Below are positions 12,838 to 37,903 of a stretch of DNA of 38,585 nucleotides, in pieces. Made by a program: the position numbers and the translations under genes. Origin of the DNA: an uncultured Clostridia bacterium (lineage in GTDB: Bacteria > Bacillota > Clostridia > Oscillospirales > Ruminococcaceae). The notes under the pieces are model-generated. The model worked only from the letters and a program-made list of their open reading frames with translations, did no database searches and had not been told where the DNA came from. How positions within the stretch are numbered: position 1 is the stretch's first letter; the number at the start of each line of letters is the position of its first letter. Where the stretch lies: NCBI GenBank assembly GCA_947166945.1, contig CAMVGH010000014.1, positions 1-38,585 of the forward strand. Reading direction: 5' to 3'.

Positions 12838-12868
12838 AATTGTGAACCTCCATAATTTGATATTCCGG

Positions 12869-13010: not shown

Positions 13011-13081
13011 CAATTTTCACATATTTTTCACAAAAAAGCGTACCGTAACTAATTATATATTTTTTCGGAAAAGCTGCGGAA

Positions 13082-13122
13082 AAGAAAAAGCCCGGACACC
13101 TTGATACAAGCGGTTCCGGACT
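13082..13122 (-). terminator. Terminator of the Rrf2 regulator gene
   Basis: On the minus strand AGTCCGGA (13122-13115) pairs with TCCGGGCT (13096-13089), followed by TTTTTCTTTT. Confidence 0.75.
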
Positions 13123-13156
13123 CAGAGACCGCCTGCGGGGCGGTGACTGCACAGTT

Positions 13157-13600: not shown

Positions 13601-13620
13601 TGGATTTCCCTCCGGTTTCA

Positions 13621-13645
13621 ATTCCTACTATTTCAATAAGTATAG
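13621..13645. promoter_or_regulatory. Operator-like copy 1, over the rrf2 -10
   Basis: CCTACTATTTC at 13624-13634, followed by AATAAGTATA, covers the minus-strand -10 (TATACT, 13644-13639) and start region of the regulator gene. Read on the minus strand it ends AGTAGGAATT, like CymR-type boxes. The rrf2 -35 TTGCAA lies 18 bases further up. Confidence 0.6.
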
Positions 13646-13693
13646 CATATTTTCCCCCTTTTTTGCAATGGTCGAAATAGATAAAAATTTACA

Positions 13694-13720
13694 ACGCCTA
13701 CTATTTCTATATGTTATATA
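13694..13720. promoter_or_regulatory. Operator-like copy 2, between the divergent promoters
   Basis: The same 11-mer CCTACTATTTC at 13697-13707, followed by TATATGTTATA, 73 bases from copy 1. Confidence 0.6.
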
Positions 13721-13734
13721 TGTAGAAAAGCACG

Positions 13735-13771
13735 AATTCCTATTGACTTAGTATGAAAAGCGGAGTATAAT
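13735..13771 (+). promoter_or_regulatory. metY/hcy operon promoter with operator-like copy 3 on the -35
   Basis: TTGACT (13743-13748), a 17-base spacer and TATAAT (13766-13771). The segment AATTCCTATTGACTTAGTAT (13735-13754) shares the ATTCCTA start of copy 1 and buries the -35, so a bound regulator would block RNA polymerase. Confidence 0.7.
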
Positions 13772-13803
13772 TATGGCAGGTCGATCCGAAAGACGGTGAT
13801 ACA

Positions 13804-22027: not shown

Positions 22028-23728
22028 TCATATATCCGCGCCGGAAATATATATCTTCCTGTAAGTGTCGAAATCCAGCCACTTCCCGAACAGCTCCGGA
22101 AGGCTCTTTTCGTCGGAACTTTCATACTCCGCCATGAAACGCTGTACATCTTCGTTCGTCTTCGCAAGCACGGCAAATCCGCGCCCGTTTACTATCGGCA
22201 CGGTGCAGTCGCGGGTGTACTCGCCGAACCGGACGAGCTTCCACACCTTACGGTCGCGGATAAGCACCGCCACCCTGTCGCGCATGACTATCACATCGAG
22301 GTCGTCGGGGTACGCGAAGCTCTTCCCGCGCACAGGTATCTCGTCACCGGGTCTGAATGTGCTGTTGATCTTCTGCGCATGGAAAACGTTGTAGCTGTTC
22401 ACATCGTAGTAGAATTCCTCGAACAGGTCGCCGTGCGCGTGAAGGATCCCGTCGGTGAAGGCTGCCTTTTCCTGCGCGTCGCTTTTCCCGTAAACCTCCT
22501 CGACCACTCCGCACGCCGCCGTCATATTCGTTACACGGTCTATAAGTATCAGTTCGCCCAGAGTTTTATGCAGCGCGAACCTGTCGGCGGGGACAGGCTC
22601 GGAAAGCTTTATCGAGCAGCGTGCAAGCCCGTTCTTGCCGACAGTCCGCACCGGTATATGCTCGCCTGTGTTCACGTCTGTGGCGTACTTTATCCCGGTC
22701 ACGACCGCCGGTATCAGCTTTGTTCCGAGCTTCGCAAGATAGTCTCCGCCCGCGGTAAGCTCGCTGTCGTCGGTCCAGAGCAGCGACACATCAAGCCCGC
22801 TGTATGCGGCTATGTTTTCGTCGCTTGTGATAACGCAGCCTCTCGACACATCTACCTCACGGTCAAGAACTATCGTCACGGGCTGTCCGGCGAATGCTGT
22901 ATCAGCCTGTCTGTCTGTGATGAGAATACTCTTTACGGAGGCAGTCTCTCCGCTGGGAAGTGTGCGCACGGTATCGCCGACGGATATGCTGCCTTCTTCG
23001 ATCTGCCCCTGAAAACCTCTGAATGTCCGGTCGGGGCGGCAGACACGCTGCACCGGCATATAGAATTTCCCGTCACCGGCGTTATCGTCCGTATCCACGG
23101 TTTCGAGGTATGTAAGAAGCGGTACTCCCTCATACCACGGCATATTCGGGGAAGGTCCGGTAACATTGTCGCCAGCCGTCGCGGACAGCGGTATGACCTT
23201 GATGTCCGGCAGTGAAAGCTCCTCCGTAAGCGCGTTTATATCGGAAAGTATCTCGTTGAAGCGGGTCTCGCTGTACCGGACAAGATCCATTTTGTTCACG
23301 GCGAAAACATAGTGCCGTATTCCCATGAGACTGCAAATACGGGCATGGCGGCGGGTCTGCACAAGAACGCCCTGCGAAGCGTCCACGAGTATCACCGCAA
23401 GATCGGCAAATGACGCGCCCACTGCCATATTGCGGGTGTATTCCTCATGTCCGGGAGTGTCCGCGACGATGAAGCTGCGCGCGTCGGTGGTGAAATAGCG
23501 GTACGCAACATCTATCGTGATGCCCTGCTCGCGCTCTGCCATAAGCCCGTCGAGCAGAAGTGAATAGTCGATAGCTCCGCCTGTGCTTCCGACCTTGCTG
23601 TCAAGTTCGAGAGCCTTCTCCTGATCGGCGTATATCAGCTTCGCGTCGTAGAGGATATGTCCGATGAGCGTGGATTTTCCGTCGTCAACGCTCCCGCAGG
23701 TGATGAACTTTAAAAGTCCTTTGCTCAT
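22028..23728 (-). CDS. cysN: Sulfate adenylyltransferase GTPase subunit, with C-terminal extension
   Basis: 566-residue translation-factor-like GTPase that drives APS formation with CysD. GTP motifs: GSVDDGKST (12-20), DTPGHEEY (90-97) and NKMD (145-148). E. coli CysN is about 475 residues; here roughly 90 more follow. The end is not an APS kinase domain, since no P-loop is present, so it is not a CysNC fusion. That fits a route using APS directly. It overlaps cysD by one base (TAATG) and is the last gene of the operon. Confidence 0.93.
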   Translation of the reverse strand: MSKGLLKFITCGSVDDGKSTLIGHILYDAKLIYADQEKALELDSKVGSTGGAIDYSLLLDGLMAEREQGITIDVAYRYFTTDARSFIVADTPGHEEYTRNMAVGASFADLAVILVDASQGVLVQTRRHARICSLMGIRHYVFAVNKMDLVRYSETRFNEILSDINALTEELSLPDIKVIPLSATAGDNVTGPSPNMPWYEGVPLLTYLETVDTDDNAGDGKFYMPVQRVCRPDRTFRGFQGQIEEGSISVGDTVRTLPSGETASVKSILITDRQADTAFAGQPVTIVLDREVDVSRGCVITSDENIAAYSGLDVSLLWTDDSELTAGGDYLAKLGTKLIPAVVTGIKYATDVNTGEHIPVRTVGKNGLARCSIKLSEPVPADRFALHKTLGELILIDRVTNMTAACGVVEEVYGKSDAQEKAAFTDGILHAHGDLFEEFYYDVNSYNVFHAQKINSTFRPGDEIPVRGKSFAYPDDLDVIVMRDRVAVLIRDRKVWKLVRFGEYTRDCTVPIVNGRGFAVLAKTNEDVQRFMAEYESSDEKSLPELFGKWLDFDTYRKIYISGADI

Positions 23729-24627
23729 TAAAAATACCCCTCTCTCTTTCTGCGCTCCATGCTTCCCGCCGCCTCATTGTCGATAACGCGGGAGGTGCGC
23801 TCGGATTCTACGCTTGCAAGCGTTTCTTCGATTATCTCGTCGAGGGTCGACGCGGTGCTTTCTATGCCGCCGGTGAGCGGGTAGCAGCCGAGTGTGCGGA
23901 ACCGCACCGACTTCATCTGCGGGACTTCTCCCTCCCGCAGCGGGAACCGTTCGTCATCTACCATGATGATGTTTCCGCCGCGCTCCACCACCGGACGGAC
24001 TGCCGCGAAGTAAAGGGGGACAATGTCTATATTCTCGCGGCGGATATACTGCCAGATATCCTTTTCCGTCCAGTTGGATATCGGGAATACACGGATACTC
24101 TCACCCTTGTTGATCTTCGTGTTGTAGAGCTTCCACATCTCGGGGCGCTGGTTCTTCGGGTCCCACGCGTGTGACGCGCTTCTGAAAGAGAAGATACGCT
24201 CCTTGGCGCGGGATTTTTCCTCGTCGCGCCTGCCGCCGCCGAACGCCGCGGTGAAGCCGTACTTGTCGAGCGCCTGTTTGAGCGCCTGCGTTTTCATGAT
24301 ATCGGTGTATGCCGCGCCGTGGTCGAAGGGATTGATACCGCGTCTCACGCCGTCCTCGTTGATATATTCCAGCATCTCGATACCGAGCTTTTCCGCGGTC
24401 TCGTCACGGAATTTTATCATTTCCCTGAATTTCCACGTCGTATTGACGTGCAGGAACGGGAATGGCGGCTTTTCGGGGTAGAAGGCTTTCATGGCAAGGT
24501 GCAGCATCACGCTGCTGTCCTTGCCTATGGAATACAGCATGACGGGCTTTTCGCACTCGGCGGCGACCTCGCGGATTATATATACCGCCTCGGCTTCAAG
24601 CTCGTCAAGGTGGGATAATTCGGACAT
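23728..24627 (-). CDS. cysD: Sulfate adenylyltransferase catalytic subunit
   Basis: 299-residue PP-loop family protein forming APS from ATP and sulfate. The N-terminal segment [15 protein letters not shown] carries the nucleotide-binding loop, and [19 protein letters not shown] is the typical CysD stretch. It ends RRKREGYF, as most CysD do. Length is normal (about 300). GGAG lies eight bases before the ATG. It is 19 bases after aprB and overlaps cysN by one base. Confidence 0.95.
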
Positions 24628-24646
24628 TTCATCATCTCCTGATCTT

Positions 24647-24961
24647 CTAATATTTATTGGACTCTCTTGTATCGACAGATATCTTCACGGTTGTGCTGTC
24701 CGGCTTTTCTATCAGCCAGTCAAGTATATCGCCGTGTCTTTCCGTGTGCATACGGCTTCCCATGCCGCCCATATCCGCGCCGAGGAAAAAGCTTACCGCA
24801 TACACGGGACATTCCTTTATGCAGCTCGTGCAGCCCCAGCAGTCCCGCGGGTACTTTATATAGGCACGCCTGTTTTCGTCAAGCGCTATGAGCGTTCCGG
24901 GGCAGACATCACGGCATTTCCCGCAGCCGATACATTTCAGTTTATCTATCTCTATACTCAA
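24647..24961 (-). CDS. aprB: Adenylylsulfate reductase beta subunit, short form
   Basis: 104-residue iron-sulfur protein with two [4Fe-4S] sites: C10, C13, C16, C20 and C41, C44, C47, C51. It passes electrons to the FAD of AprA. Dissimilatory AprB has an extra C-terminal tail (about 150-160 residues in all); this one lacks it. The start is TTG, overlapping the aprA stop (TTGA), with GGAGG about 11 bases upstream. No ATG is available ahead of the first cluster. Confidence 0.9.
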
Positions 24962-26613
24962 CTGCCGCTCACCCTCCTTAGTATGATCTCGGTCCTGCCG
25001 TTCACGAAGCGGGAGTTCACAAACACGTTCCAGCGTTCGTCATCACGCTCCGGGTAGTCGGTATTCTCCGCGAAACAGTGCCAGCGTGTCTCGTGACGCG
25101 CTTTCAGATGTGCTATGACAGTCCTGCAAACGGTCAGCCGTTCCCGCAGCTCGTATATATACATAAGCTCCTGCATATCATCGGCGTGAAGGCTGTCCGA
25201 CAGCTTTTGCAGCTGTACTATCCGTCTGTCGGCTTCACCGAGGGTCTTTTCCGAGAAGCGGTAGTTCGTCTTTATCCCGCCCGCATAGCTGTCCATTGCG
25301 GTCTGCATAGCTTCTTCCAGCTGCTCTGTGGTATAAGGGCTGCCGGAGTTTATAAGAAATCCCTCTGCCTCTTTCCGGTGAAGTGCGGCGCTCTCTTCGG
25401 AGACAGTTCCGGGGGTACTGTTCCCGAGATATTTCAGTATGGCAAGCGCCGCTATCTCACCCTCGGCAAGCGCACCGGTGACATACTTCTGCGGGGCGCC
25501 GCCGGAAACGTCTCCCGCGGCGTACAGACCCTTTATGGTAGTGGCGCGGTCGGTGTCCACCCAGAACCCGCTTGCGGTATGCCCGCCGACTATGTACGGC
25601 TCGGTACCCTCGATCTCAACATCGTGCTGTGAGGGCAGTTCTCCGCTCTCACACCATTTCAGGGTCTGCGACGGCGCCATATTCAGATAGGCTTTCAGAA
25701 GTGACTGCTCCTGCTCCGGGGTGATGCCTTTCGTTTTCAGGAAGCACGGTCCCCTGCCCGCCGCGTTTTCCGCGACTGTCCCGTAAACGCGCTCCGAGGT
25801 GGTAAGCCCGTATTTCTGCTCATATACCTCGCCGAGAGCGTTTGTCTGCTTTGCGCCTACCCCCTGTGCGAGAGTTCCCGTGGGGGCTATCGTGTCCTTG
25901 CACCGCAGCGCGATAAAGCGCATCTCGAACGTGGTCATCTCCGCGCCGTGACGTATCCCCATAGCGTACCCCGCGCCGGTATTGAACGGGCAGTACCACA
26001 TCTTATGCCGCGAGAAGCCGGGATTATCCGGCTTGTAAAGTCCCGCCGCGCCGCCGGTGGCTATCAGCACCGCGCCCGCTTCGATGACATAGAACACACC
26101 GTTTTCGATACCGATGCCGAAAGCGCCGTTCACGCGGTTGTCTGTCACGGAAATGTCGGTGATATCCACGCGGTTGAGTATCCTCACATTCGGCTGTCTC
26201 TCCGCCATTCCCGCAAGCAGTGGCTTTATATTCTCGCCGTTTATCTTGATATTGCGGTTCCCGCGCGTGACGTATTTTCCCTGCTCGTCTTTGAGAATGA
26301 CGAGACCTTCTTTTTCAAGCCGCTCCGTTACCGCGTTGAGCCGCTCCGACATTGTGACCAGCAGGTCTTCCCGCGCTATCCCCGCCGCGTCCTTCATACA
26401 GTAATCCGCGTAATCCTGCGGCGTCCTGCCCTCGGTTATGTAGGCGTTGAGCGCGTTCACTCCCGCGGCAAGACAGCCGCTTCTTTTAATGTGCGCCTTT
26501 TCGCATATAAGTATCTGTCTGTCTGAATTTTCGGCGGCAGTCACCGCGGCATAGCAGCCGGCAGTCCCTCCTCCGATTATCAGGATATCGGTCTTTATTC
26601 GTTCTGTCTTCAT
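24958..26613 (-). CDS. aprA: Adenylylsulfate reductase alpha subunit
   Basis: 551-residue FAD enzyme of the succinate dehydrogenase/fumarate reductase superfamily. The FAD fold opens IIGGGTAGCYAAVTAAE (about 12-28). Further family segments are HIKRSGCLAAGVNAL and GLYAAGDVSGG near residue 365. With AprB it reduces APS to sulfite and AMP. It is shorter than the dissimilatory enzyme (about 610-660). The context with cysDN, sulfate importer and siroheme genes argues for assimilation rather than respiration: no qmo or dsrAB genes are present. It overlaps the sulfite reductase gene by four bases (ATGA). Confidence 0.92.
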   Translation of the reverse strand: MKTERIKTDILIIGGGTAGCYAAVTAAENSDRQILICEKAHIKRSGCLAAGVNALNAYITEGRTPQDYADYCMKDAAGIAREDLLVTMSERLNAVTERLEKEGLVILKDEQGKYVTRGNRNIKINGENIKPLLAGMAERQPNVRILNRVDITDISVTDNRVNGAFGIGIENGVFYVIEAGAVLIATGGAAGLYKPDNPGFSRHKMWYCPFNTGAGYAMGIRHGAEMTTFEMRFIALRCKDTIAPTGTLAQGVGAKQTNALGEVYEQKYGLTTSERVYGTVAENAAGRGPCFLKTKGITPEQEQSLLKAYLNMAPSQTLKWCESGELPSQHDVEIEGTEPYIVGGHTASGFWVDTDRATTIKGLYAAGDVSGGAPQKYVTGALAEGEIAALAILKYLGNSTPGTVSEESAALHRKEAEGFLINSGSPYTTEQLEEAMQTAMDSYAGGIKTNYRFSEKTLGEADRRIVQLQKLSDSLHADDMQELMYIYELRERLTVCRTVIAHLKARHETRWHCFAENTDYPERDDERWNVFVNSRFVNGRTEIILRRVSGS

Positions 26614-27476
26614 TTCTCATTTATCGCTTTCAGTATCACTTCACGGAATCTGTCATGCCCTACCCGGTCAAGCGTGAAACGGAACCGCTCGCTCGGGTTC
26701 GCGTTCTGTGCGAAGAATTCTATCGCCGCGTCGCATACACGCATCAGCGTGTCGTGATCCTCGATGAACGGAACTATCGGTTCACCCTTTGCGATGCTGT
26801 TTCCGAACAGTCCGCCGAATGACACGATATAGCCGCTTGTCTGTTCCCACGCGTCCGTCGGGCAGGATTTCACACACCGTCCGCAGAAATTGCATTTACC
26901 CGTATCGACGGTGATCTTCCCGTCCTGCACGGTTATGGCACCGGCGCGGCAGACTTTTTCGCAGACACCGCAGTGAATGCAGTCCTGTTCCTTCCAGCCG
27001 ACCTTTATGCCGCCCTTTATGCCGAGATCGTTCTCTTCCGCTTTGAGGCAGTTGTTCTGGCAGCCGGTTATGCCGAATTTGAACTTGTGCGGGAGTTCCC
27101 TTGCGTAGTACCGCTCGTCAAGCTCTTTTGCCAGCGCGTAGGTGTCGATGCACCCGCTCGGACATATCGCGTTTCCCTGACAGGCGGTTATCGTGCGCAC
27201 ACGCGGACCGCACACACCGGGCTGTACATCGCCCTCTGCGAGAGCGTTCTTCACTTCGTCTATCTGCTCAAGCTTTATGAACGGTATTTCGATGCTCTGA
27301 CGCGAGGTGAGATGTACATGACCGTCTCCGTATTTTTCCGCTACCTCCGCTATCTTCGCAAGCTGCCCCGCGGTGACGTTCCCACCCACAACGCGTAAGC
27401 GCAGCGAGAAATTGTTCTTTTGCTTCTGGCGCATGAATCCGCCTTTTTTGAGTGTCCCATAATCGACTGCCATCAT
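26610..27476 (-). CDS. Siroheme sulfite reductase with built-in ferredoxin domain
   Basis: 288-residue single-chain reductase. Siroheme/[4Fe-4S] ligands are C99 and C105 (CX5C) plus C139 and C143 (CX3C, GCQNNC). An inserted two-cluster ferredoxin follows (C166, C169, C172, C176 and C195, C198, C201, C205). It should reduce sulfite to sulfide. It is about half the length of plant-type or CysI enzymes, resembling the AsrC/DsrA-like small sulfite reductases of anaerobes. The start is ATG 27476 or the next ATG at 27473; AAGGAG lies within the end of hemL, and the TTG at 27479 is too close. The hemL stop and this start overlap by one base. Confidence 0.88.
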   Translation of the reverse strand: MMAVDYGTLKKGGFMRQKQKNNFSLRLRVVGGNVTAGQLAKIAEVAEKYGDGHVHLTSRQSIEIPFIKLEQIDEVKNALAEGDVQPGVCGPRVRTITACQGNAICPSGCIDTYALAKELDERYYARELPHKFKFGITGCQNNCLKAEENDLGIKGGIKVGWKEQDCIHCGVCEKVCRAGAITVQDGKITVDTGKCNFCGRCVKSCPTDAWEQTSGYIVSFGGLFGNSIAKGEPIVPFIEDHDTLMRVCDAAIEFFAQNANPSERFRFTLDRVGHDRFREVILKAINEK

Positions 27477-28744
27477 CAATTCTCCTTCCTGTAATGTGCA
27501 ATTATTTCAGCTGTTTTCGCTATATCCCCGTCGCTGTGAGCATACGACACGAACATCGCCTCAAACTGCGACGGCGCGGCATAGATGCCGTTATCCAGCA
27601 GGTACGCGAAGAACCGCGCATATCCGTTCCTGTCTGCCGTCATCGCCGTTTCATAGTCGGTGACCGGTGTATCCGTGAAAAATACCGTCATCAGCGAACC
27701 GCAGCGGTTTACATTCAGTCCCGCGCTCCTTGCCGCGGCTTCAAGCACCGCCGTTTTCCGGTCAAGTTCGCCGTACAGGTCGGGAATGCGTTCTGTCTCC
27801 GTTATCTGCGCTATCCCCGCAGCCGTCGCTATCGGATTGCCGGAAAGAGTTCCCGCCTGATAGACCGCACCGAGGGGCGCTACGTTCTCCATTATCTCAC
27901 GTTTTCCGCCGTAAGCCGCGAGGGGCATTCCCCCGCCGACGATCTTACCGAGTACGGTCATATCCGGCTTTATGCCGTAAAGCTCCTGTGCGCCGCCTGC
28001 CGACAGCCGGAACCCCGTTATCACCTCATCGAATATCAGTATCGCGCCGTACTTTTCCGTAATATCACGAAGCGCCTTCAGAAATCCGTCTTTCGGCGGA
28101 ACAACGCCCATGTTTGCCGCACACGGCTCGACTATGACGGCGGCGATACTGTCAGGACAGCGTTCAAAAAGCGCCTGCACCGAGTCCGGGTCATTATACC
28201 GCGCGAGCAGTGTATTTTCCGTGAGAGCCGCGGGAACTCCCGCGCTGTCCGGAATACTCCCCGTTATCAGTCCCGAACCGCCCTTTACGAGCAGTCCGTC
28301 GGAATGTCCGTGATAGCAGCCCGCGAACTTCACTATCCTGTCACGGCGCGTATATCCCCGTGCCGCGCGTACCGCGCTCATCACGGCTTCCGTTCCGGAG
28401 TTCACCAGCCGAAGCATCTCCATTGACGGGAAGTGAGCTTTTATCTTTTCGGCGAGTATTACTTCTCCCTCGTGACACGCTCCGTATGTAAGCCCGCTGT
28501 CGCAGGCACGCTTCACCGCTTCGATGATCGCCGGGTGAGCGTGACCGAGAATGTCGGGTCCCCACGAGCATACGTAGTCTGTATATTCATTTCCGTCCGC
28601 GTCGGTTATCCTGTCACCGTGCGAACCCGCGATGAACAGCGGCTCCCGCCCCACGCTCCCGAACGCCCGGACAGGGCTGTTCACGCCGCCGGGCATCAGA
28701 GTTTTGGCTTTTGCAAACAATTCTGTTGATCTTGCTGTTATCAT
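27476..28744 (-). CDS. hemL: Glutamate-1-semialdehyde 2,1-aminomutase
   Basis: 422-residue PLP enzyme making 5-aminolevulinate. Typical N-terminus ([11 protein letters not shown]), [10 protein letters not shown], and the PLP lysine K267 in [15 protein letters not shown] start at 28744 because that ATG overlaps the hemB stop (ATGA), in line with its neighbours; an in-frame ATG four codons up (28756) is possible. It is part of the siroheme block. Confidence 0.94.
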
Positions 28745-29703
28745 TCGTTTATCCATTCCGCGGCATCGAGCGCGTGATATGTGATGATGATATCCGCACC
28801 GGCACGCTTTATTGCAGTAAGATTTTCAAGCACTATACGCTTCTCGTCTATCCAGCCGTTCGCTGCGGCAGCTTTCACCATGCTGTATTCGCCGCTTACA
28901 TTGTACGCGGCTATCGGAAGGTCAAAGCGGTCACGGGCGGAACGAAGCACATCGAGATACGCAAGCGCGGGCTTCACCATGACCATATCCGCGCCCTCGT
29001 CGATGTCGTCCGCTATCTCACGGAGAGCCTCCCGCCCGTTTGCGGGGTCCATCTGGTATGTGCGCCTGTCACCGAACGACGGAGCGGACTGCGCTGCGTC
29101 GCGGAATGGCGAATAGTAGCCGGAAGCGAATTTCGCGCTGTATGACATTATCGGCGTGTTTACGTGACCCGCACCGTCGAGAGCTTCACGTATTGCCGCA
29201 ACTCTGCCGTCCATCATGTCCGAGGGGGCTATAATGTCGGCTCCCGCGTCCGCTAAGCTCACCGCCATTTTTGCAAGGAGCGGGAGCGTTTTGTCGTTGA
29301 CTATCTCGTGACCGCACACGACCCCGCAATGCCCGTGAGAGGTGTATTCGCACAGGCACACATCGGCAATTATCAGCAAATGAGGGTACTTTTCCCTGAT
29401 GTACCGTACAGTGCGCTGAGTGACGCCGTTTTCACTGTACGCTTCGGAAGCGGTTTCGTCCTTGTGGGCGGGTATGCCGAATATCAGTACGCCCGCGATC
29501 CCACTCTCTGCCACGCGGTCAAGTTCCTCGCCGATACGGTCGGGCGACCATTGGTAAATACCCGGCATCGAATCAACGGGATTCTTTATGTTTTCTCCTT
29601 CGGCAGCAAAGACCGGGTATATCAGCTCACTTTTACTGAGCCTTGTTTCGCGGACCAGCGACCGCATTTCCTCACTTGCGCGAAGTCTTCTGAACCTTCT
29701 CAT
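28741..29703 (-). CDS. hemB: Porphobilinogen synthase
   Basis: 320-residue enzyme joining two 5-aminolevulinates. The zinc-type site is [12 protein letters not shown], with three cysteines. The Schiff-base lysines lie in [10 protein letters not shown] and [10 protein letters not shown]. Length is normal. It overlaps the cobA-hemD fusion by four bases and hemL by four. Confidence 0.95.
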
Positions 29704-31133
29704 TCCGCAGCATCTCCTTTTATCGCAGCCGCCGCGCCCTGTGCTGTATGCGTGCCGGCGGTGATGATCTTATTGTTTGTGTATTGCTGTACAGTTTCCG
29801 CTGTCTGTGCGCCTATGCAGACTATCCTTGTTTTTGCGGATATTGTGCTTCCGCCCTCAAAAAAGTGCTGCACTCCGGACGAGCTGCCGAACACTATGTA
29901 ATCCGTATCCGCATTTACGGGCGGGAGCTTTCGGCTCACAGTGTCGTATATCTTCACATCATCGAATACAGTCCCGCGCTCATACAGCACCCTGCAAAGC
30001 TCTTCCGAGCCGCGCTTTGCACGCAGTATCAGCACTCGTCCGGTCACGCTGTCGGCTATCGTTTCTCCGAGGTCACGGACGGTGTATCTCTCCGGAACTA
30101 TGTCCGCGTATATCCCCGCAGCCGCGAGCGTTTCCGCCGTGCCGCTGCCTACGGCTGCGATCTTTATGCCCGCGATGCAGCGCATATCCGTGCGGCTTTC
30201 GCGGCAATACCCGACAAACATTTCCACGCCGTATGAGCTTGTGAACGCGATGCAGTCATATCCCGCAAGGGGCGGTATATCCGAAGTACGGACCGTCCGC
30301 AGATGACAGTATCTCCGGACCTGCGCTCCCTCGTCTGCGAGCAGCGCACCGAGCTTTTCCGTGAATTTTCCCGTCCCGGTGACAGTCACCGATACGCCGG
30401 AAAGCGGCAGCTGAGCGGGTGTTCCCGAAAAGTCATAAGCTGCCGTTTCACCGACGGCAATGACCGCCGGAGCCGTCATTCCCGCCGCTTTTTCCGCGAT
30501 ATCCGCGAGAGTGCCGCGCACCGATCTCTGATGTGCGGTACCGCCTTCCGAGATGACTGCGGCGGGGGTATCTGCGGTCCTGCCTCCGCGGATAAGTCCC
30601 GCCGCTATGTCGGGAAGCGCGTTCAGACCCATAAGAAAGACGAGCGTTCCGCCGAGCCTCGCATACTGCGAAAAGTCCTGTGTTCCGTCCGCCGTATGTG
30701 CCGTTATGACATGGAACGAACGGCTTGTCTTCCGGTGTGTCACGGGTATTCCCGCAAGCTCCGGGACGGCTATCGACGATGATATGCCGGGGATAACTTC
30801 ATAAGCGATACCGTGCTTCTGAAGCTCGGTTATCTCCTCGCCGCCCCGCCCGAAAACGAACGGGTCACCGCCTTTGAGCCGTGCGACCGTGCGCCCCGCA
30901 AGCGCTTTCTCCACAAGCAGAGAGTTGATATCTTCCTGCTTTGCGGAATGTTTTCCGGAGCGCTTTCCCACGCATATCAGCTCCGCGCTTTCCCGTGCGT
31001 ATGACAGAAGTTCGCTGTCAATAAGCGCGTCATATATAACGGTGTCGCATTGTTTCAGCGCATTCAGCCCGCGCACCGTGATAAGGTCTGCCGAGCCGCA
31101 GCCCGCGCCGATGATATATACAAAACCGGTCAC
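29700..31133 (-). CDS. cobA-hemD: Fused uroporphyrinogen-III methyltransferase/synthase
   Basis: 477-residue fusion. Residues 1 to about 245 are the SAM-dependent CobA/SUMT domain: [15 protein letters not shown] at the start, [15 protein letters not shown] near 85-99, and the segment [20 protein letters not shown]. The remaining 230 residues are uroporphyrinogen-III synthase (HemD), a divergent family recognised by position and by the ending with [12 protein letters not shown]. Together they close the ring and add two methyls, giving precorrin-2. The start codon is GTG, overlapping hemC by four bases (GTGA). Confidence 0.92.
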
Positions 31134-31987
31134 AGCGCGTTCACCAGCCTTTCCGCGAGCGAAAAGCGTTCTTCGCAGGAAGCACTCCCTGTAAGGCTCT
31201 TCCGCTGATCCTTCGTCACCGTGAGCTTTATCGTACCGTCTGTGATCTCCGCGAACGCGCCCGCCGGTGACGAGCAGCCCGCGTTCAGCAATTCAAGCAC
31301 CCTCCGTTCTGTCTCATAGCACAGAAATGTGTTTTCATCGCTTATTTTCCGTAAAATATCAGATGCAGTACCGCCGACCCGCGACTGCACAGCGATAATT
31401 CCCTGGCAGGGCGCGGGAACGAGTACAGTGAAAGGTATCTCTTTAAAATCAAAACGTTTATCCGTGAATGCGCCGAGCCGTGTAAGTCCCGCAGCCGCAA
31501 GCACTATCCCGTCATACTGCCTGTCGTACAGCTTTTGCAGACGGGTATCGACATTCCCGCGTATATCGGCGTTCACCGACCGCGGAAACAGTTTCCTCAC
31601 ACCTGCTGCACGGCGGGTGCTGCTTGTTCCGATGACCGGTTTTTCCGGCAGCACCTCACCTCTGCGTGTCACAAGGACATCATGCGCGTCCGCACGGGGC
31701 AGGACTGCGCAAATACAGGTACCCTCCGCAAGTTCAAGCGGAAGATCCTTGGCACTGTGAACGGCGATATCAATATCGCCCGCGAGCATTGCCCTCTCGA
31801 TCTCATCTATAAAAACGCCCTTTCCGCCTATCTTTTCAAGCGGCTTGTCGAGGACGATATCTCCCTTTGTGGTTATATGCACAAGCCCGGTCTCAATATC
31901 CGGAAAGGCAGCTTTTACAGCGTCCGCAGCCATTTCCGACTGTATCAGCGCGAGCTTGCTCTTACGTGTTCCGATGCGTATTTTCAT
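31130..31987 (-). CDS. hemC: Hydroxymethylbilane synthase
   Basis: 285-residue porphobilinogen deaminase. MKIRIGTRKSKLALIQ is the usual start, then VHSAKDLP, then LNAGCSSPAGA with the cysteine carrying the dipyrromethane cofactor. It lies between sirC and the cobA-hemD fusion, with four-base overlaps on both sides. Confidence 0.95.
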   Translation of the reverse strand: MKIRIGTRKSKLALIQSEMAADAVKAAFPDIETGLVHITTKGDIVLDKPLEKIGGKGVFIDEIERAMLAGDIDIAVHSAKDLPLELAEGTCICAVLPRADAHDVLVTRRGEVLPEKPVIGTSSTRRAAGVRKLFPRSVNADIRGNVDTRLQKLYDRQYDGIVLAAAGLTRLGAFTDKRFDFKEIPFTVLVPAPCQGIIAVQSRVGGTASDILRKISDENTFLCYETERRVLELLNAGCSSPAGAFAEITDGTIKLTVTKDQRKSLTGSASCEERFSLAERLVNAL

Positions 31988-32589
31988 AGGCTCTCCAGCA
32001 ATTCTTCTATCTCGTTTTTATCCGGCGGCTCTCCGTCCGCGCACCTTTGCAGCAGCGCTTCGGCAGCCTCTTTACGCTTTTCCGCGGTGGAAAATCTCTG
32101 CTTTATCACGGGTCTGTACTTAGCGAGGATATCCCCTGCCGCAAGCGTTTTTCCGTCAAGCGCACCGGCGACTTTTTCCTTTATGTATCGCGCGAATATC
32201 GGGCTTGCACCTCCCGTGGAGATGCCGGCGGTCACATTCCCCGCCTGCACCAGTGCCGGAAAGTAAAACCCGCAGTTCTCCGGGTCATCGACCGTGTTCA
32301 CGAGGATCTTTTCAGCGCCGCAAAGCTCAAATATGTGCCTGTTCAGTGTCCGGTCGTCCGTTGCCGCAATGACCGCGAAAGCGCCGTCGATATCGCTGTC
32401 ACGGAACTCACGGCAGTACAGGCAGACATTGCCGAGTACCGCAAATCCCTCACAGAACGCGGGCGATACCGCAGCGATATCCGCTCCGAATGGCAGCAGC
32501 TTCTCCGCCTTTCGCAGAGCCACATTCCCGCCGCCGGCTATCAGTATCTTCTTCCCCGCAAGGTCGATGAAAAACGGGAAAAATGCCAT
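31984..32589 (-). CDS. sirC: Precorrin-2 dehydrogenase, possible sirohydrochlorin ferrochelatase
   Basis: 201-residue Met8/SirC/CysG-N type protein. The NAD site is ILIAGGGNVALRKAEKL (about 15-31), and ISTGGASPIFARYIKE is the conserved central segment. It oxidises precorrin-2 to sirohydrochlorin. Yeast Met8 also inserts iron, whereas Bacillus SirC does not; which applies here cannot be read off. No separate chelatase gene is in the operon. Start supported by GGAG seven bases upstream. Confidence 0.9.
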   Translation of the reverse strand: MAFFPFFIDLAGKKILIAGGGNVALRKAEKLLPFGADIAAVSPAFCEGFAVLGNVCLYCREFRDSDIDGAFAVIAATDDRTLNRHIFELCGAEKILVNTVDDPENCGFYFPALVQAGNVTAGISTGGASPIFARYIKEKVAGALDGKTLAAGDILAKYRPVIKQRFSTAEKRKEAAEALLQRCADGEPPDKNEIEELLESL

Positions 32590-32593
32590 ATTC

Positions 32594-33688
32594 TCACTCC
32601 AATCCGCGCATCACGTCAAGCACTGCCTCGAACTGTGCGCCGTCAAGCCCGTCCCGCAGCCGGTATATCAGCTCCTCGAACGTAAGCTGCGAAGCCGCCG
32701 CTCTCACCGTGTCCAGCTCCGGCATGAATCTATGGAAGGCAAGCCGCTTGCGCAGCCCGTCAAGTTCCTCGTTTATGATAAGCTCAGCCTGCTCCGCGGC
32801 AGTCATGCGAAGCTCGTTGTTGTGCCGTGCAAGCTCCCCGAGATCGTCTATCCCGATGAGCCGCACTCCCACGATCTCTGTGACAGTCCGCTCTATGTCC
32901 GGCGGCACCGCGAGGTCGATCAGAAGACGGGGCTTTTCCGTGCGGAGAGCCGCTTTCAGTTTTCCCGCAGTCACCGTGAAATGCGGGCTTGCGGTGGCGC
33001 TTATTATGCAGTCAGCGCTGTCTGCTTCCTCATACCGCCTGTCATACGGTACTGTGCGGACACCGTCATATTGCACTGTTCCTGCCGAATGGACGCGGGC
33101 GGTCTGGGTGATATGCACATTCCTGTGAGGCAGAAGATTTTTCAGGGTCGCGGAACCTATTTTCCCGCTTGCGCCGATCATGAGGATATTCACACTGTCG
33201 CCGAGTTTCGACGCTTCATTCGCCGCGATAGTTGCTGCCGAGACGGGGGTTTTCGACAATTCCGTTTCGGTCTTTACCCGTTTTGCGCAGGTCATGGCAG
33301 CCTGAAACGCCGTGTTCAGTTCAAAATCGGTGCTGCCGTTCACAGCCGCCTCCGAGTACGCGGACTTCACCTGCCGCAGTATCTCGTCCTCGCCGAGTAT
33401 CATCGAATCTATCCCGCAGGCTACCCGGAACAGGTGACGCAGGGCGCTCTCCCCCTCGTAGGTGCGCAGATACTCCGTGATACTGTCTGTTCCGGATATC
33501 CCGGAAAGCAGTGCCGCCGCGTCACCGACCGCCGCCGAGGTGAAATAGATCTCGGTGCGGTTGCAGGTGCAGAGAACGACGGCGGGACCGAGCCCACGGC
33601 GTATTTCCGAACACTTCTTCTCATCAAGCGAGAACTTCTCACGGACGGATACCGGCGCATTTTTATAGCTTATCCCAAGTGCTTTCAT
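32594..33688 (-). CDS. hemA: Glutamyl-tRNA reductase
   Basis: 364-residue enzyme starting the C5 route. The catalytic cysteine is C42 in LCTCNRTEIYF. The NADPH domain has the segment LMIGASGKIG in place of the usual GAGEM. It is shorter than E. coli HemA (418) in the C-terminal dimer region. It sits five bases after cysA, so a transporter and a tetrapyrrole gene are directly joined. Confidence 0.92.
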   Translation of the reverse strand: MKALGISYKNAPVSVREKFSLDEKKCSEIRRGLGPAVVLCTCNRTEIYFTSAAVGDAAALLSGISGTDSITEYLRTYEGESALRHLFRVACGIDSMILGEDEILRQVKSAYSEAAVNGSTDFELNTAFQAAMTCAKRVKTETELSKTPVSAATIAANEASKLGDSVNILMIGASGKIGSATLKNLLPHRNVHITQTARVHSAGTVQYDGVRTVPYDRRYEEADSADCIISATASPHFTVTAGKLKAALRTEKPRLLIDLAVPPDIERTVTEIVGVRLIGIDDLGELARHNNELRMTAAEQAELIINEELDGLRKRLAFHRFMPELDTVRAAASQLTFEELIYRLRDGLDGAQFEAVLDVMRGLE

Positions 33689-33693
33689 GCCGC

Positions 33694-34752
33694 TCAGATC
33701 ACTACCGTTTCTTCGCGGACGGCGTTGTTGGTCAGCAGTCTTACCGAATCGCCGCGGGTGATGAAGATGCGGTAAATGAACACATCGACAGCCTCGCCTA
33801 TCTCAACGGCTGGCTCATCAAGTCCGCGTCTCGCGCTGAAAGTGCTGTTGTTGCAGTCCACGGTTATCTCGATGCTGCTGCCCCGGAACTGTACGTCCCG
33901 CACCACGCCTTCGACCGCCGAACTTTTGTATTTCTGCACTTCATTTTTCTTTGTGATCTTCACGAACTCGGGGCGCACTATCGCCTTGTCGTACTCATCG
34001 ACTTCATCAAACGATTTGAAAGACTTGTAATCCGCAAGCTCCGAGGTCACGCCGAAAAAAGCGGAAGTGAACGCGGTAGTCGGGCTGCGGTATATATCTA
34101 TCGGCGTTCCGGTCTGTTCGACGCGTCCCTTGTTGGTGACGATTATCTCATCGGAAACTTCTATCGCCTCGTCCTGGTCGTGGGTCACGAAAATGCCCGT
34201 TACGCCGAGATGATGTATCATATCTTTGAGCCACCGCCGAAGTTCCTGCCGCACCTTCGCGTCTATGGCGGCAAAGGGTTCATCGAGCAGCAGTACCTGC
34301 GGACTCGGCGCAAGCGCTCTTGCGAATGCCACGCGCTGTCTCTGCCCGCCCGAAAGCTGTGACGGATAGCGTTTCTCGAAGCCCTCCAGCCCTATCAGCT
34401 TTATCAGCTCCGTTACGCGCGCCTTTATTTCCGCTTTGCTCTGTTTGCGTACTTTCAGACCGAACGCTATGTTGTCAAACACGGTCATATAGCGGAACAG
34501 CGCATAGCTCTGGAACACGAAGCCTATGCCGCGTTCGCTGGCGGGAATGTCGTTGACGACTTTGCCGTCTATGACGATCTCGCCGCTGTCGGGCTTTTCA
34601 AGTCCCGCTATCATGCGCAGTATCGTGGTCTTGCCGCTTCCGGAGGGACCGAGAAGCGCCACGAGCCTGCCCTTTTCTATCTCAAAATTCACATTGTCCG
34701 AGGCTTTGAAACCGCCGTAGGACTTGTTGATATTTTTCAGTTCAATATACAT
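33694..34752 (-). CDS. cysA: Sulfate/thiosulfate ABC transporter ATPase
   Basis: 352-residue ATPase of the CysA type. Walker A GPSGSGKTT is at 35-43. LSGGQRQR and LLLDEPFAAID follow, then a regulatory C-terminal domain of about 110 residues. It overlaps cysW by one base (TAATG). Molybdate or other oxyanion ATPases look alike, but the two distinct permeases and the sulfate-type binding protein in the same operon favour sulfate. Confidence 0.92.
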   Translation of the reverse strand: MYIELKNINKSYGGFKASDNVNFEIEKGRLVALLGPSGSGKTTILRMIAGLEKPDSGEIVIDGKVVNDIPASERGIGFVFQSYALFRYMTVFDNIAFGLKVRKQSKAEIKARVTELIKLIGLEGFEKRYPSQLSGGQRQRVAFARALAPSPQVLLLDEPFAAIDAKVRQELRRWLKDMIHHLGVTGIFVTHDQDEAIEVSDEIIVTNKGRVEQTGTPIDIYRSPTTAFTSAFFGVTSELADYKSFKSFDEVDEYDKAIVRPEFVKITKKNEVQKYKSSAVEGVVRDVQFRGSSIEITVDCNNSTFSARRGLDEPAVEIGEAVDVFIYRIFITRGDSVRLLTNNAVREETVVI

Positions 34753-35627
34753 TACTTTTCTCCGCTTCTTTTGCCTATGTATTCCACTATGCTGCGCACT
34801 ATGAGTATGAGTATCGCAAGCACCACAAGTATCGACGATACCGCGAATGCCGGCATGAACTTGTTGTCACCGAAGAGTATCTCCACCTGAAGGGGCAGTG
34901 TGACAGTCTTTCCGCGCAGATGCCCGGAAAGCACCGATACCGCGCCGAACTCTCCCATTGCGCGGGCTGCGCAGAGAACTATGCCGTACAGCAGCGCCCA
35001 TTTTATATGCGGCAGCGTTACTCTCCGGAAGATCGTGAAGCCCTTCGCGCCCATAAGAGCGGCGGCTTCCTCCTCGTCCGTCCCCTGCGCTTCAAGCACA
35101 GGGAGTATCTCACGGGAGATGAACGGGAATGTCACGAACACCGTTGCGAGGATTATTCCGGGGACCGCGTACACCACCATGAAGTCGATGCTTTCAAGGA
35201 GCGGGTACAGTGCGCTCTGTCTGCCGAATGTAAGTACGAATATAAGTCCCGCGATTATCGGGGACACGGTCACGGGCAGGTCGATGAGCGTCACGAGCAA
35301 CTTTTTTCCGTGAAAGCGGAACTTCGATACCGCCCATGCCGCGAACAGCCCGAACACCGTGTTTATCAGTACGGCAATTACGGCAGCTTCGAGAGTGAGC
35401 AGCAGCGCGCTTATCGTGTCCGGATCGGATATAGCTTCGAGATACGGGACGAGCCCCTTTCTGAAAGCCTCATATATCACCGTTATCAGCGGCATCACAA
35501 GCATAACGAACAGAAAAAGAACACTTACGGTTATCAGTATTGCCTTCACCGCTTTTGAACCCGCTGTCTGAGAGTGTATGTCCGTGCTGCCCTCACGGGA
35601 GATCACCTGTTTTTTTTCGGCAGCCAT
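34752..35627 (-). CDS. cysW: Sulfate ABC transporter permease CysW
   Basis: 291-residue inner-membrane permease with six predicted helices. The EAA loop is EEEAAALMGAKGFTIFRRVTLP, and the segment ARAMGEFGAVSVLSG is typical of sulfate permeases. GGAGG lies eight bases before the ATG, within the end of cysT. It forms a heterodimer with CysT. Confidence 0.93.
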   Translation of the reverse strand: MAAEKKQVISREGSTDIHSQTAGSKAVKAILITVSVLFLFVMLVMPLITVIYEAFRKGLVPYLEAISDPDTISALLLTLEAAVIAVLINTVFGLFAAWAVSKFRFHGKKLLVTLIDLPVTVSPIIAGLIFVLTFGRQSALYPLLESIDFMVVYAVPGIILATVFVTFPFISREILPVLEAQGTDEEEAAALMGAKGFTIFRRVTLPHIKWALLYGIVLCAARAMGEFGAVSVLSGHLRGKTVTLPLQVEILFGDNKFMPAFAVSSILVVLAILILIVRSIVEYIGKRSGEK

Positions 35628-35628
35628 A

Positions 35629-36459
35629 TCAGTGACCTCCTTTCAGTATCTTCGTATTCCTTATCTGTATAAGGTTCACAAGGAACAGTATCAGGAACGC
35701 CGCCGCCAGCATCACGAGCGCTATCGCCGTGGCGCTGGAATAGTCGTATTCCTGAAGTTCCGACATTATGATAAGCGGAGTTATCTCCGTTTCATAAGGC
35801 TGATTCCCGGCAATGAACACAACGCTCCCGTATTCTCCGAGACAGCGCCCGAACGCAAGCCCGAATCCCGTGAATATCGCCGGACGAAGCTCCGGCAGTA
35901 TCACCGTAAGGAACGTGCGTGTCCTGCTTGCGCCGAGTATGCCCGCAGCTTCCTCGTACAGCGGGTCGAGCTTTTCGAGCACGGGCTGTACGGTGCGCAC
36001 CACGAACGGTATGCCGATAAATACAAGCGCCACGGTTATGCCTATACGGGTGTAAGCGATCTTTATCCCCATGCCCGAGAAGATCCCGCCGATCCAGCCG
36101 GTATCGGCGTACAGCGATGTGAGGGATATGCCCGCCACCGCAGTCGGCAGCGCGAACGGCAGTTCTATCATACCGTCGAGTATGCGCTTTCCGGGAAAAT
36201 CATACCGTACAAGCACCCACGCGAGCACCACGCCCATGACCGCGTTTATCAGCGACGCGATGAGAGAGGTTATCAGGCTTACCTCAAAGCTTGCCGCAAC
36301 GCGGGGACGGGTTATTACTTTCAGAATATCGGCAAAGTCCATTTTCGCCGTGAACACCACAAGCGACGCCAGCGGTATCAGCACCATGATGCTCAGCAGC
36401 GCGAGGGTCACGCCCATCGAGATCCCGAAGCCGGGAATGATCCTTTTATTGTTTTTCAT
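35629..36459 (-). CDS. cysT: Sulfate ABC transporter permease CysT
   Basis: 276-residue permease with six predicted helices. The EAA loop is EEAAGILGASRTRTFLTVILP, and FGRCLGEYGSVVFIAGN is the sulfate-permease signature. It lies 81 bases after sbp, a gap holding a strong hairpin, and one base before cysW. The ribosome site is AAAGGA. Confidence 0.93.
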   Translation of the reverse strand: MKNNKRIIPGFGISMGVTLALLSIMVLIPLASLVVFTAKMDFADILKVITRPRVAASFEVSLITSLIASLINAVMGVVLAWVLVRYDFPGKRILDGMIELPFALPTAVAGISLTSLYADTGWIGGIFSGMGIKIAYTRIGITVALVFIGIPFVVRTVQPVLEKLDPLYEEAAGILGASRTRTFLTVILPELRPAIFTGFGLAFGRCLGEYGSVVFIAGNQPYETEITPLIIMSELQEYDYSSATAIALVMLAAAFLILFLVNLIQIRNTKILKGGH

Positions 36460-36478
36460 AAAAATGTTCCTTTTGCAG

Positions 36479-36506
36479 TATATCCCCGCCCGAAGGCAGG
36501 GATATA
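36479..36506 (-). other. UUCG-capped hairpin between sbp and cysT
   Basis: On the minus strand TATATCCCTGCC and GGCGGGGATATA pair over a UUCG loop (twelve positions, one mismatch). No T-run follows. This is the usual layout of a stem-loop that protects the upstream sbp message, so that the binding protein is made in excess over the permeases. Confidence 0.65.
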
Positions 36507-36540
36507 CCGGAGTATTGGAAAGATAGTCGGATAGCTTTTA

Positions 36541-37605
36541 TCAGTCCTGTTCGTAGATCTGATCGAACAGTCCGCCGTCTGCGAAGTGCTTTGCGAACGC
36601 TTCGTCCCAGCCGCCGAAATCATTGATAGTTACAAGGTTGATATTGAGGTCGAATGTGTCGGCAAACTCCGCAAGCACTGTTTCATTGGACGGACGGTAG
36701 AAGTTCTCGCCCGCTATTCTCTGTGCTTCCTCGGAATAGAGGTAGTTCAGATATTCGGTCGCTACTTCGCGTGTGCCGTTCTTGTCAACGACCTTATCCA
36801 CTATTGCAACTGAGGGCTGTGCGAGAATGCTGATGCTGGGAGTAACTATCTCGTATTCGTCCGGGTATTCCTTCAGAGAGAGGAACGCCTCGTTCTCCCA
36901 CGCGAGAAGCACGTCTCCCTGCTTGTTCTCAACAAAGGAGTTTGTGGAGCCGCGGGCTCCCGAATCGAGTACCAGAACATTTGCGTAAACCTTCTTGATA
37001 TAGTCGATGACCTTTGCTTCATCGTTGTTGTATTCCTTCTGAGCCCATGCCCATGCGGCAAGATAGTTCCAGCGTGCGCCGCCCGAGGTCTTCGGATTCG
37101 GAGTTATGACACCGACACCGTCCTTTGCGATGTCGCCCCAGTCGAGAATGTTCTTCGGGTTGCCCTTACGCACAAGGAACACGATAGTGGAGGTATAGGG
37201 CGAGCTGTCAAGCGGGAATTCGCTGACCCAGCCGGGTTCGATAAGTCCCGCGTCCTCGACTGCCTTTACGTCATATTCGAGGGCGAGGGTCACTACATCG
37301 GCGGGGTTGCCGTTCGCCACTTCAAGCGCCTGCTTTCCGGAACCGCCGTGGGACTGGGTTATCTCAACCGTGGAGTCATGCTCCGACTCCCAGTGCTTTT
37401 TGAACGCTTCGTTGTAAGCCACATACAGCTCACGGGTGGGGTCGTAGGAAACATTGATGATGGAATAGCTCTTAGCCGCCGCGGGAGCTGCGCTTTCGGG
37501 AGAAGTCTCGTTCGATGCCGAAGCGTTTGAGCATGATGTTGCTGTGACTATTGTTGTAATAAGTGCAAGAGATGCTGCTGTTGTTTTAAAAAATGTACCT
37601 TTCAT
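36541..37605 (-). CDS. sbp: Sulfate-binding lipoprotein of ABC transporter
   Basis: 354-residue extracytoplasmic binding protein. The signal ends at a plausible lipobox with C25 (TATSC), so it should be lipid-anchored. Family segments are SYDPTRELYVAYNEAFKKHW, then TQSHGGSGKQA, then ADVVTLALEYDV and NPKTSGGARWNYLAAW. It delivers sulfate to CysT/CysW/CysA. The ribosome site GAGG (37618-37615) lies nine bases before the ATG but is inside the 3' arm of a leader stem. It is the first large gene of the operon. Confidence 0.95.
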   Translation of the reverse strand: MKGTFFKTTAASLALITTIVTATSCSNASASNETSPESAAPAAAKSYSIINVSYDPTRELYVAYNEAFKKHWESEHDSTVEITQSHGGSGKQALEVANGNPADVVTLALEYDVKAVEDAGLIEPGWVSEFPLDSSPYTSTIVFLVRKGNPKNILDWGDIAKDGVGVITPNPKTSGGARWNYLAAWAWAQKEYNNDEAKVIDYIKKVYANVLVLDSGARGSTNSFVENKQGDVLLAWENEAFLSLKEYPDEYEIVTPSISILAQPSVAIVDKVVDKNGTREVATEYLNYLYSEEAQRIAGENFYRPSNETVLAEFADTFDLNINLVTINDFGGWDEAFAKHFADGGLFDQIYEQD

Positions 37606-37613
37606 TTTTAATT

Positions 37614-37657
37614 ACCTCGTTTCGTTATTGATGTTGAAAATGTGAACGTAACAAGGT
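37614..37657 (-). promoter_or_regulatory. Stem hiding the sbp Shine-Dalgarno
   Basis: On the minus strand ACCTTGTTACGTT (37657-37645) pairs with AACGAAACGAGGT (37626-37614): 13 positions, one A-A mismatch, one wobble, an 18-base loop. The 3' arm includes the sbp ribosome site GAGG. The 5' arm begins one base after the stop of the leader reading frame. Confidence 0.75.
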
Positions 37658-37658
37658 C

Positions 37659-37703
37659 TCAACAGCGGGCTATCCCTCCGGATTTGCCTATCAGGTTTTT
37701 CAT
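37659..37703 (-). CDS. 14-residue leader peptide ending in cysteine
   Basis: ATG at 37703 opens MKNLIGKSGGIARC and stops with TGA at 37661-37659. The last sense codon is TGT for cysteine. A purine-rich AAGAAGAG stretch precedes it as a modest ribosome site. A ribosome waiting at TGT would cover the first bases of the stem at 37657 and free the sbp ribosome site. The frame is too short to prove by sequence alone. The link of its last codon to the pathway's end product and its spacing to the stem are the arguments for it. Confidence 0.6.
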   Translation of the reverse strand: MKNLIGKSGGIARC

Positions 37704-37720
37704 GATATCTCTTCTTTCTT

Positions 37721-37738
37721 TACCCTACTTTTCATATC
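37721..37738. promoter_or_regulatory. Degenerate Rrf2 operator-like site in the sbp leader
   Basis: CCTACTTTTCATAT (plus strand, within 37723-37737) matches the CCTACTATTTCnATA motif of the rrf2/metY region except for one missing base. It lies about 25-40 bases after the predicted sbp transcription start. This would link the two sulfur blocks under one regulator, but a single degenerate match is weak. Confidence 0.35.
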
Positions 37739-37765
37739 GTTTTGATATGTTTTCTCTGTGTGCTT

Positions 37766-37794
37766 ATAATAACACATTTCTCCCGTGTTGTCAA
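37766..37794 (-). promoter_or_regulatory. Strong promoter of the sulfate/siroheme operon
   Basis: Minus-strand TTGACA (37794-37789), a 17-base spacer and TATTAT (37771-37766). The untranslated leader to sbp is about 150 bases. Between 37795 and 37903 I see no gene. Confidence 0.8.
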
Positions 37795-37903
37795 CTACCC
37801 CGATCCAAATTTGTAGCTTATAACATTATTACCGGGCAGCGGACTGATCTTTTCAGTCAAAACTACCACAATATTCCTTCGGAAAAGCGAAAAAATACAG
37901 CAT

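Follow-up and report, generated by a model that had tools for sequence, protein, structure and literature searches.

In the translational attenuation of ermC and cat, a ribosome is stalled by an antibiotic at a site before a stem that hides the Shine-Dalgarno sequence (SD) of the next gene. Other leader peptides, such as TnaC and SpeFL, arrest at their stop codon with a ligand present. Cysteine leader peptides have reportedly been tested in mycobacteria, where they are leaderless according to that study's title. Leader peptides with runs of Cys codons have been predicted ahead of the cys operons in Mycobacterium and Propionibacterium and of cbs in Bifidobacterium, where a conserved terminator hairpin was not found (PMC1262725). 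In other Firmicutes, control by CymR and by a Cys T-box has been described (PMC3828012, PMC2940859), the clostridial T-box having a TGC specifier and a terminator (PMC2940859). For Streptomyces lividans, PMC8079986 reads the metL leader before metNIQ as methionine-dependent. The metL peptide given there has RCMCRRMC near its end, and it might be a cysteine leader.

The locus described here lies in a window of 38,585 nucleotides (the whole stretch of DNA that was analysed) from an uncultured Clostridia bacterium, and it is one contig of a MAG-like genome. Its nearest named relatives among the matches listed are Ruminiclostridium and Ruminococcus MAGs, many of them ruminant-derived. A row of sulfate-assimilation genes runs along the minus strand with sbp at its head, and the leader of sbp is, in our best reading, probably a cysteine-responsive translational attenuator. 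From the upstream gene towards sbp, the order is terminator-like hairpin, promoter, palindrome, leader frame and stem:

37945-37901, minus strand: terminator-like hairpin, upstream of the promoter
37766..37794, minus strand: sigma-70-type promoter TTGACA-17-TATTAT, 11/12 matches, with TG before the second hexamer
37733..37749, minus strand: palindrome CATATC-AAAAC-GATATG, just downstream of the predicted transcription start
37659..37703, minus strand: leader frame MKNLIGKSGGIARC, 14 codons, ATG at 37703, ending Arg-Cys-stop
37645..37657, minus strand: 5' arm of the stem, ACCTTGTTACGTT, one base (37658) after the leader stop
37614..37626, minus strand: 3' arm of the stem, AACGAAACGAGGT, holding the sbp SD GAGG (37618-37615)
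36541..37605, minus strand: sbp, sulfate ABC transporter substrate-binding protein (NF008022, 444.6 bits, cut-off 288; Pfam SBP_bac_11)
33694..36459, minus strand: two permeases and the ATPase of the sulfate transporter (BPD_transp_1 twice, ABC_tran, TOBE_2)
22028..33688, minus strand: continuation of the row, with haem/sirohaem genes, a sulfite reductase-like protein, adenylyl-sulfate reductase alpha, cysD and cysN

By their position, we take the permeases and the ATPase to be cysT, cysW and cysA. In the continuation of the row, uroporphyrinogen-III C-methyltransferase was named by a profile match and the other haem/sirohaem genes carry names that we mostly presume. Same-strand packing suggests that the whole row, 22028..37605, is co-transcribed, and the promoter match predicts a transcription start near 37759. 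Searches for a T-box or other Rfam family gave no match at the gathering score in the window, nor at E<=1 in 37500-37900. Five leader peptides compared with NCBIfam matched no family; frames as short as these are likely missed in annotation.

The initial annotation had claimed a 14-codon frame whose final sense codon is TGT, followed by a stop, and just such a frame is present at 37703-37659 on the minus strand (Cys codon 37664-37662, stop TGA 37661-37659). It is one of a class. Among 76 sbp leaders read, including one identical pair (L046/L114) of which both were kept, 33 have such a frame: 26 with [SA]GGxxRC, one variant and six with L[LV]R[AT]NFRxGRC. The 26 and the variant (L090, SVGGIMCCCM) are referred to as type A (27 leaders) and the last six as type B. 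An in-frame Cys codon is found in 33/33, the class being defined by that motif, and Arg directly precedes it in 32/33. In type A, Gly at -4 is invariant (27/27, three codons in use), while Gly at -5 and Arg at -1 are each kept in 26/27, with four and three codons in use. In type B, Asn, Phe, Arg, Gly, Arg and Cys are invariant (6/6), and CGA stands ahead of TGT in all six. That starvation for the Cys codon alone explains the frame, as first proposed, is not supported, because selection seems to hold the residues ahead of Cys at the amino-acid level while their codons change silently.

Codon choice at the Cys position is also uneven. TGT is used in 24 type A leaders and TGC in three (n=27), and TGT in 30/33 type A/B leaders; it makes up 24% of 133 Cys codons in the window genes and 219/695 (32%) in the genes of 30 related loci, a comparison made without a p-value because the leader rows are not independent. 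Cys codons stand side by side only in L027, L080 and L090 of the 33, and the window has one. Together, the conserved peptide and the preference for TGT suggest that nascent chain and codon choice may help one Cys codon suffice. A stop directly after Cys is present in the window and in 25/33 type A/B leaders, and translation reads on past Cys in 8/33, which contradicts the supposed need for a stop at that point.

Within the genus, an sbp match was found in 13/71 genomes; 12 of the 13 leaders have [SA]GGxxRC and the 13th, L011, has LLRTNFRYGRC. The family sample had sbp in 20/396 genomes at 1e-60: the window's own, eight type A, five type B, two with other Cys-ending or Cys-rich frames (L089, L087), three without such a leader (L086, L088, L091) and one cut off (L092). 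L088 was counted as frameless because its Cys-containing frame sits inside an upstream coding stretch. A wider contig database gave 36 sbp loci, of which 19 are type A, 12 lack the frame and five were cut off or left out; one of the frameless loci is labelled Desulfovibrio and the others carry labels of Lachnospiraceae or kin (such as Herbinix, Lachnoclostridium and Acetatifactor). The class sample had an sbp match in 28/391 genomes, own included, and types A and B were absent from its 26 usable others, two of which, L118 and L094, have Cys-rich frames. The single frame of L118, ending RHNWRNGRMCNICMSDGGISYC before the stop, resembles type B followed by type A and is perhaps an ancestral double sensor. 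Left out of the leader set were loci with the gene's 5' end missing (L033, L035, L051, L092, L119) and from distant phyla (L047, L049); loci repeating an already listed genome (L002-L010, L012, L014, L074) were counted once, and the leader of L019 is cut by the contig edge. In a tree of 75 Sbp proteins, type A and type B are each explained by a single change relative to the other, and the two types, plus six unlabelled rows, share one supported 38-row clade, a support that excludes its inner order.

In pattern searches, [SA]GGxxRC matched 22 times in the genus: 12 sbp leaders, one before an sbp fragment and nine elsewhere, mostly inside other genes, with three matches for the reversed-pattern control. 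In the fragment case, L057 (G039 contig 79), the sbp leader is present once more, ahead of a broken piece of sbp. In the 396 family genomes there were 14 matches (four sbp, four cysK, six elsewhere; control 2). The type B pattern had 0 matches in 394 order genomes, the six type B genomes lying outside the listed draw.

The cysK matches point to a second gene, one that appears from its protein, rather than from a database match, to encode cysteine synthase. They come from four genomes of genus g25, in which frames such as MKRLSICAAAGGLARC end ~70 bases before cysK, so that AGGL(A/V)RC occurs ahead of cysK as well as sbp. The cysK locus is present in 6/7 genomes of g25, and all six have an Arg-Cys frame, including the variants GALARCC (L137) and TTARCYC (L138). 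A cysK match was found in 162/197 genomes, of which 30 loci were read, plus four more of g25. Among 28 further family cysK leaders, 13 contain a frame of some kind with a Cys close to the end, and four were judged comparable by eye. L142 has MQIIRAAGVVFRC and L145 has MKYPLPLRCRRC, each followed by a stop; the frame of L147 ends CAGRCCRCCR and a stop, and that of L156 contains RADFRFGRARRC and ends 170 bases upstream. Overall, Arg-Cys frames stand before cysK in L120-L123, L137, L138, L142, L145, L147 and L156, from five family genera and often as CGA TGT. A clear SD stem was found in none of the four cysK leaders folded; a GC-rich hairpin lies directly behind the frame in three of them, and a smaller one in L120.

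At sbp, the element behind the frame is a stem. It had been described as having 13 positions, starting one base past the stop and carrying the sbp GAGG in its 3' arm, and it is present in that form: 12/13 positions pair, with one A-A mismatch and one G-U, around an 18-base loop, ahead of the sbp ATG at 37605. The stretch 37659-37605 folds at -11.2 kcal/mol (z -3.54, 0/200 shuffles as good), and the comparison varies with the stretch chosen, from z -1.18 (29/200) for 37703-37590 and z -2.16 (7/200) for 37660-37590 to z -3.39 (0/200) for 37768-37570. The duplex of the 5' arm with the SD region is better than those of 1000/1000 shuffled 5' arms (p 0.001).

In total, 37 leaders were folded, the 33 of type A/B with L087, L089, L094 and L118, and a stem was counted when the minimum-energy fold paired at least three SD bases with positions 4-11 after the Cys codon. 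Such a stem, abutting the proposed stall codon and hiding the next gene's SD, is found in 22/37, that is, in the window and 21 others, three of them weak (L026, L028, L032). It occurs with both peptide types (L076, L077, L080, L085; L079, L083) and with a Cys-to-ATG gap of 52 to 125 bases. The other 15 leaders (L011, L025, L027, L029, L031, L075, L078, L081, L082, L084, L087, L089, L090, L094 and L118) show no such stem, and the output step is therefore not universal. Two of these, L025 and L078, still reach p 0.011 and 0.02 when their arms are compared with shuffled ones, a test passed at p<0.05 by 18/37 leaders (Fisher 4e-14; 2.8e-6 in 24 leaders after removing 13 close kin, with some kinship remaining). 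Cognate arms also pair better than swapped ones (p 5e-5; 8.5e-4 with close kin removed). In alignment A1, made of 17 leaders picked for having the stem, 78.4% of cells are paired, against 71.6% in shuffles (0/500 as high) and 42-53% when slid, and covariation is 0.266, against 0.171 (0/500) and 0.10-0.13. Four pairs in A1 have double changes, a number not above shuffles (79/500 as high). Whole-fold energy reaches z <= -1.96 in only 9/37 leaders, the window (z -1.47) not among them. Comparison of related sbp leaders, the check first suggested, supports the Cys codon (33/33) and an SD-masking stem at a constant position after it, with compensatory changes in many leaders; 15 lack the stem.

Mean SD accessibility is 0.32 in the 33 frame-bearing leaders versus 0.53 in 39 others and 0.56 in three others (p 0.0005; p 0.045 in a reduced set of 20). 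These three are folded members of the clade that lack the frame (L086, L093, L098 and L102), L086 having been read by eye and being absent from the comparison. Values below 0.25 are found in 18/33 frame-bearing leaders versus 5/42 others (L101, L099, L118, L048, L106), in which the SD is masked by other folds. A leader that keeps the stem and has lost the frame or the Cys codon was looked for and not seen among those folded; the four distant frameless leaders L048, L099, L101 and L106 mask the SD by folds unlike the Cys-adjacent stem. A candidate pseudoknot between TGTTGA (Cys/stop) and TCAACA in the loop was rejected, since in a test on 18 leaders it did not outdo shuffled loops (Fisher p 0.46).

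The effect of a ribosome on the stem was modelled with general values for its footprint, which begins 12 bases upstream of the P site and extends 10 bases beyond the A-site codon, in 19 leaders picked for their stem (L016 and L030 among them are absent from A1). Mean SD accessibility is 0.13 without a ribosome and stays at 0.08-0.12 while the A site is still two to six codons short of Cys; it rises to 0.48 at Arg, 0.43 at Cys, 0.46 at the next codon and 0.52 at the next but one. For the window, the free value of 0.00 becomes 0.65, 0.68, 0.74 and 0.74 at the same positions. The modelled ribosome thus frees the SD only with its A site at Arg, Cys or a following codon. Since only these positions open the SD, only a pause there could act in the model, and one at GGAGGG (37679-37674), which had been suggested as an added pause, could not. 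That hexamer exists in the window, where a ribosome placed on it leaves the SD closed (0.00). Relatives have GGCGGT or GGCGGA, and what is kept is the two glycines of the peptide, not the likeness to an SD. The model fails in L016 (0.08), L080 (0.02) and L085 (0.07), where the SD stays shut with a ribosome at Cys, and in L019 (0.59), L050 (0.50) and L030 (0.63) the SD is half open without one. As it opens the SD equally at the stop, the model cannot tell a stall at Cys apart from slow termination.

A further layer of control may act at the promoter. The palindrome at 37733..37749, which can also fold as a 6-bp hairpin, is likely an operator of CymR/Rrf2-like type and suggests transcriptional control of sbp. 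Similar palindromes were noted by eye in relatives' leaders, including frameless ones such as L086 and L102. The window also encodes an Rrf2 regulator at 13160-13600 on the minus strand (rrf2_super 99.4 bits; CymR 91.9, below the cut-off of 195), next to an O-acetylhomoserine/O-acetylserine sulfhydrylase-like gene. Between these two genes, at 13600-13803, CCTA-type repeats seen by eye resemble those of sbp and cysK promoters; a leader frame ahead of the sulfhydrylase gene at 13804 was not seen by eye in 12400-13860. In the promoters of L121-L123, L081, L082 and L011, a palindrome CCTATTGAC-N3-(A/G)TAGG, with variants and read by eye, overlaps the -35 hexamer. Palindromes of the CCTATTGAC type occur at both sbp and cysK promoters.

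What stands of the proposed translational attenuation of sulfate uptake by cysteine is the frame, its Cys codon, the stem and their conservation, to which covariation and position can be added; what does not is the need for a stop, the pause at GGAGGG, starvation as sole cause and a universal stem. Stalling, the cysteine signal, SD opening and the part of the peptide can be pictured as follows. The transcript would start near 37759 and a ribosome would translate the 14-codon leader. With charged Cys-tRNA plentiful, it would pass the single TGT and leave, and the stem 37657-37614 would re-form and hide the sbp SD. With cysteine short, it would wait at the unfilled Cys codon in its A site, holding peptidyl-Arg-tRNA in the P site, and its leading edge would cover the first bases of the 5' arm, so that the stem could not close over the SD. 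The freed SD would allow translation of sbp and probably also of the genes behind it. The Cys step may be slowed by the conserved residues that precede it and by the favoured TGT, enough for one Cys codon to suffice, and a CymR-like repressor may work separately at the promoter palindrome.

This reading is favoured because translational attenuation by cysteine supply fits the frame, its position, the stem and the gene targets, and it is supported by the presence of Arg-Cys frames at another cysteine gene, cysK. Against it, a single Cys codon is a weak starvation sensor, translation in 8/33 leaders continues past Cys towards the 5' arm, and SD masking by other folds is also found in frameless leaders (5/42 below 0.25, L118 included). 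The conservation of the peptide could instead mean that an AGGxxR or ANFRxGR chain senses a ligand (cysteine, O-acetylserine or another) and stalls near Cys or the stop, in the manner of TnaC or SpeFL, with the stem as read-out. Gly -5 (26/27), Gly -4 (27/27) and Arg -1 (26/27) kept through silent changes, Asn-Phe-Arg and Gly-Arg-Cys in 6/6 type B leaders, a peptide that persists where the SD stem is not seen, and AGGL(A/V)RC before cysK all speak for such an arrest peptide. However, Cys is the common element of type A, type B and cysK leaders, and the stop is dispensable (8/33). Ligand-arrest peptides also stall on their ligand, whereas sulfate uptake is expected to rise when cysteine is absent. 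We therefore consider ligand-sensing arrest unlikely. The constant Cys would favour Cys-tRNA starvation, and the conserved residues before it appear to call for some nascent-chain role.

The leader could also be a mere translated spacer, serving coupling or mRNA protection, with the cysteine response coming from a CymR-like repressor at the palindrome. That palindrome is present, also in frameless leaders, and the Rrf2 gene lies beside the sulfhydrylase-like gene, yet the constant Cys codon, the conserved peptide and the covarying stem would be left unexplained, which makes this explanation very improbable. Leader translation might instead govern transcription attenuation, intrinsic or Rho-dependent. 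Rho has been suggested for hairpinless actinobacterial cys leaders (PMC1262725), and a GC-rich hairpin follows the frame in three of the four cysK leaders folded. At sbp, however, the SD lies within the stem, no U run follows it, and the only terminator-like site found lies upstream of the promoter, with none between promoter and sbp; attenuation of transcription hardly seems credible.

If cysteine-responsive translational attenuation is correct, sulfate assimilation in one group of gut and rumen bacteria would be under ribosome-read cysteine control without a T-box or riboswitch. A broader and more tentative idea, which we hold to be possible but rather less than even, is that of a portable module in Ruminococcaceae-like bacteria, in which the AGGxxR or ANFRxGR chain primes the ribosome so that a single TGT reports Cys-tRNA supply, with different outputs (the SD stem at sbp, another arrangement at cysK). 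The leader is also a compact system in which to ask if the ribosome can be made sensitive to one starved codon by a nascent peptide.

In comparison with known systems, the sbp leader is like ermC and cat in that its proposed stall site lies directly ahead of a stem masking the SD of the downstream gene, but the signal there is an antibiotic and the signal proposed here is cysteine supply. Like TnaC and SpeFL, it is a short conserved peptide ahead of a regulated gene; those arrest at the stop with ligand present, whereas here a stop follows Cys in the window and is absent in 8/33 relatives. With the Cys T-box it would share control of Firmicutes sulfur genes by Cys-tRNA charging, although the T-box binds the tRNA directly and the element here is a translated codon, mostly TGT. 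Closest are the actinobacterial leaders, in which cysteine or sulfur genes are likewise preceded by a short frame with Cys near its stop, with cysteine-responsive attenuation as proposed here. They have several Cys codons in a run, where ours mostly have one, and the mycobacterial ones are leaderless, to go by the title, while the predicted promoter here implies an untranslated leader. We recognised no description of a leader of the present kind in Ruminococcus-like bacteria among the open-licence literature searched. Cysteine leader control is thus already known in outline from Actinobacteria, and what is new here, in addition to those leaders, is a conserved short peptide joined to a covarying RNA stem that masks the SD.
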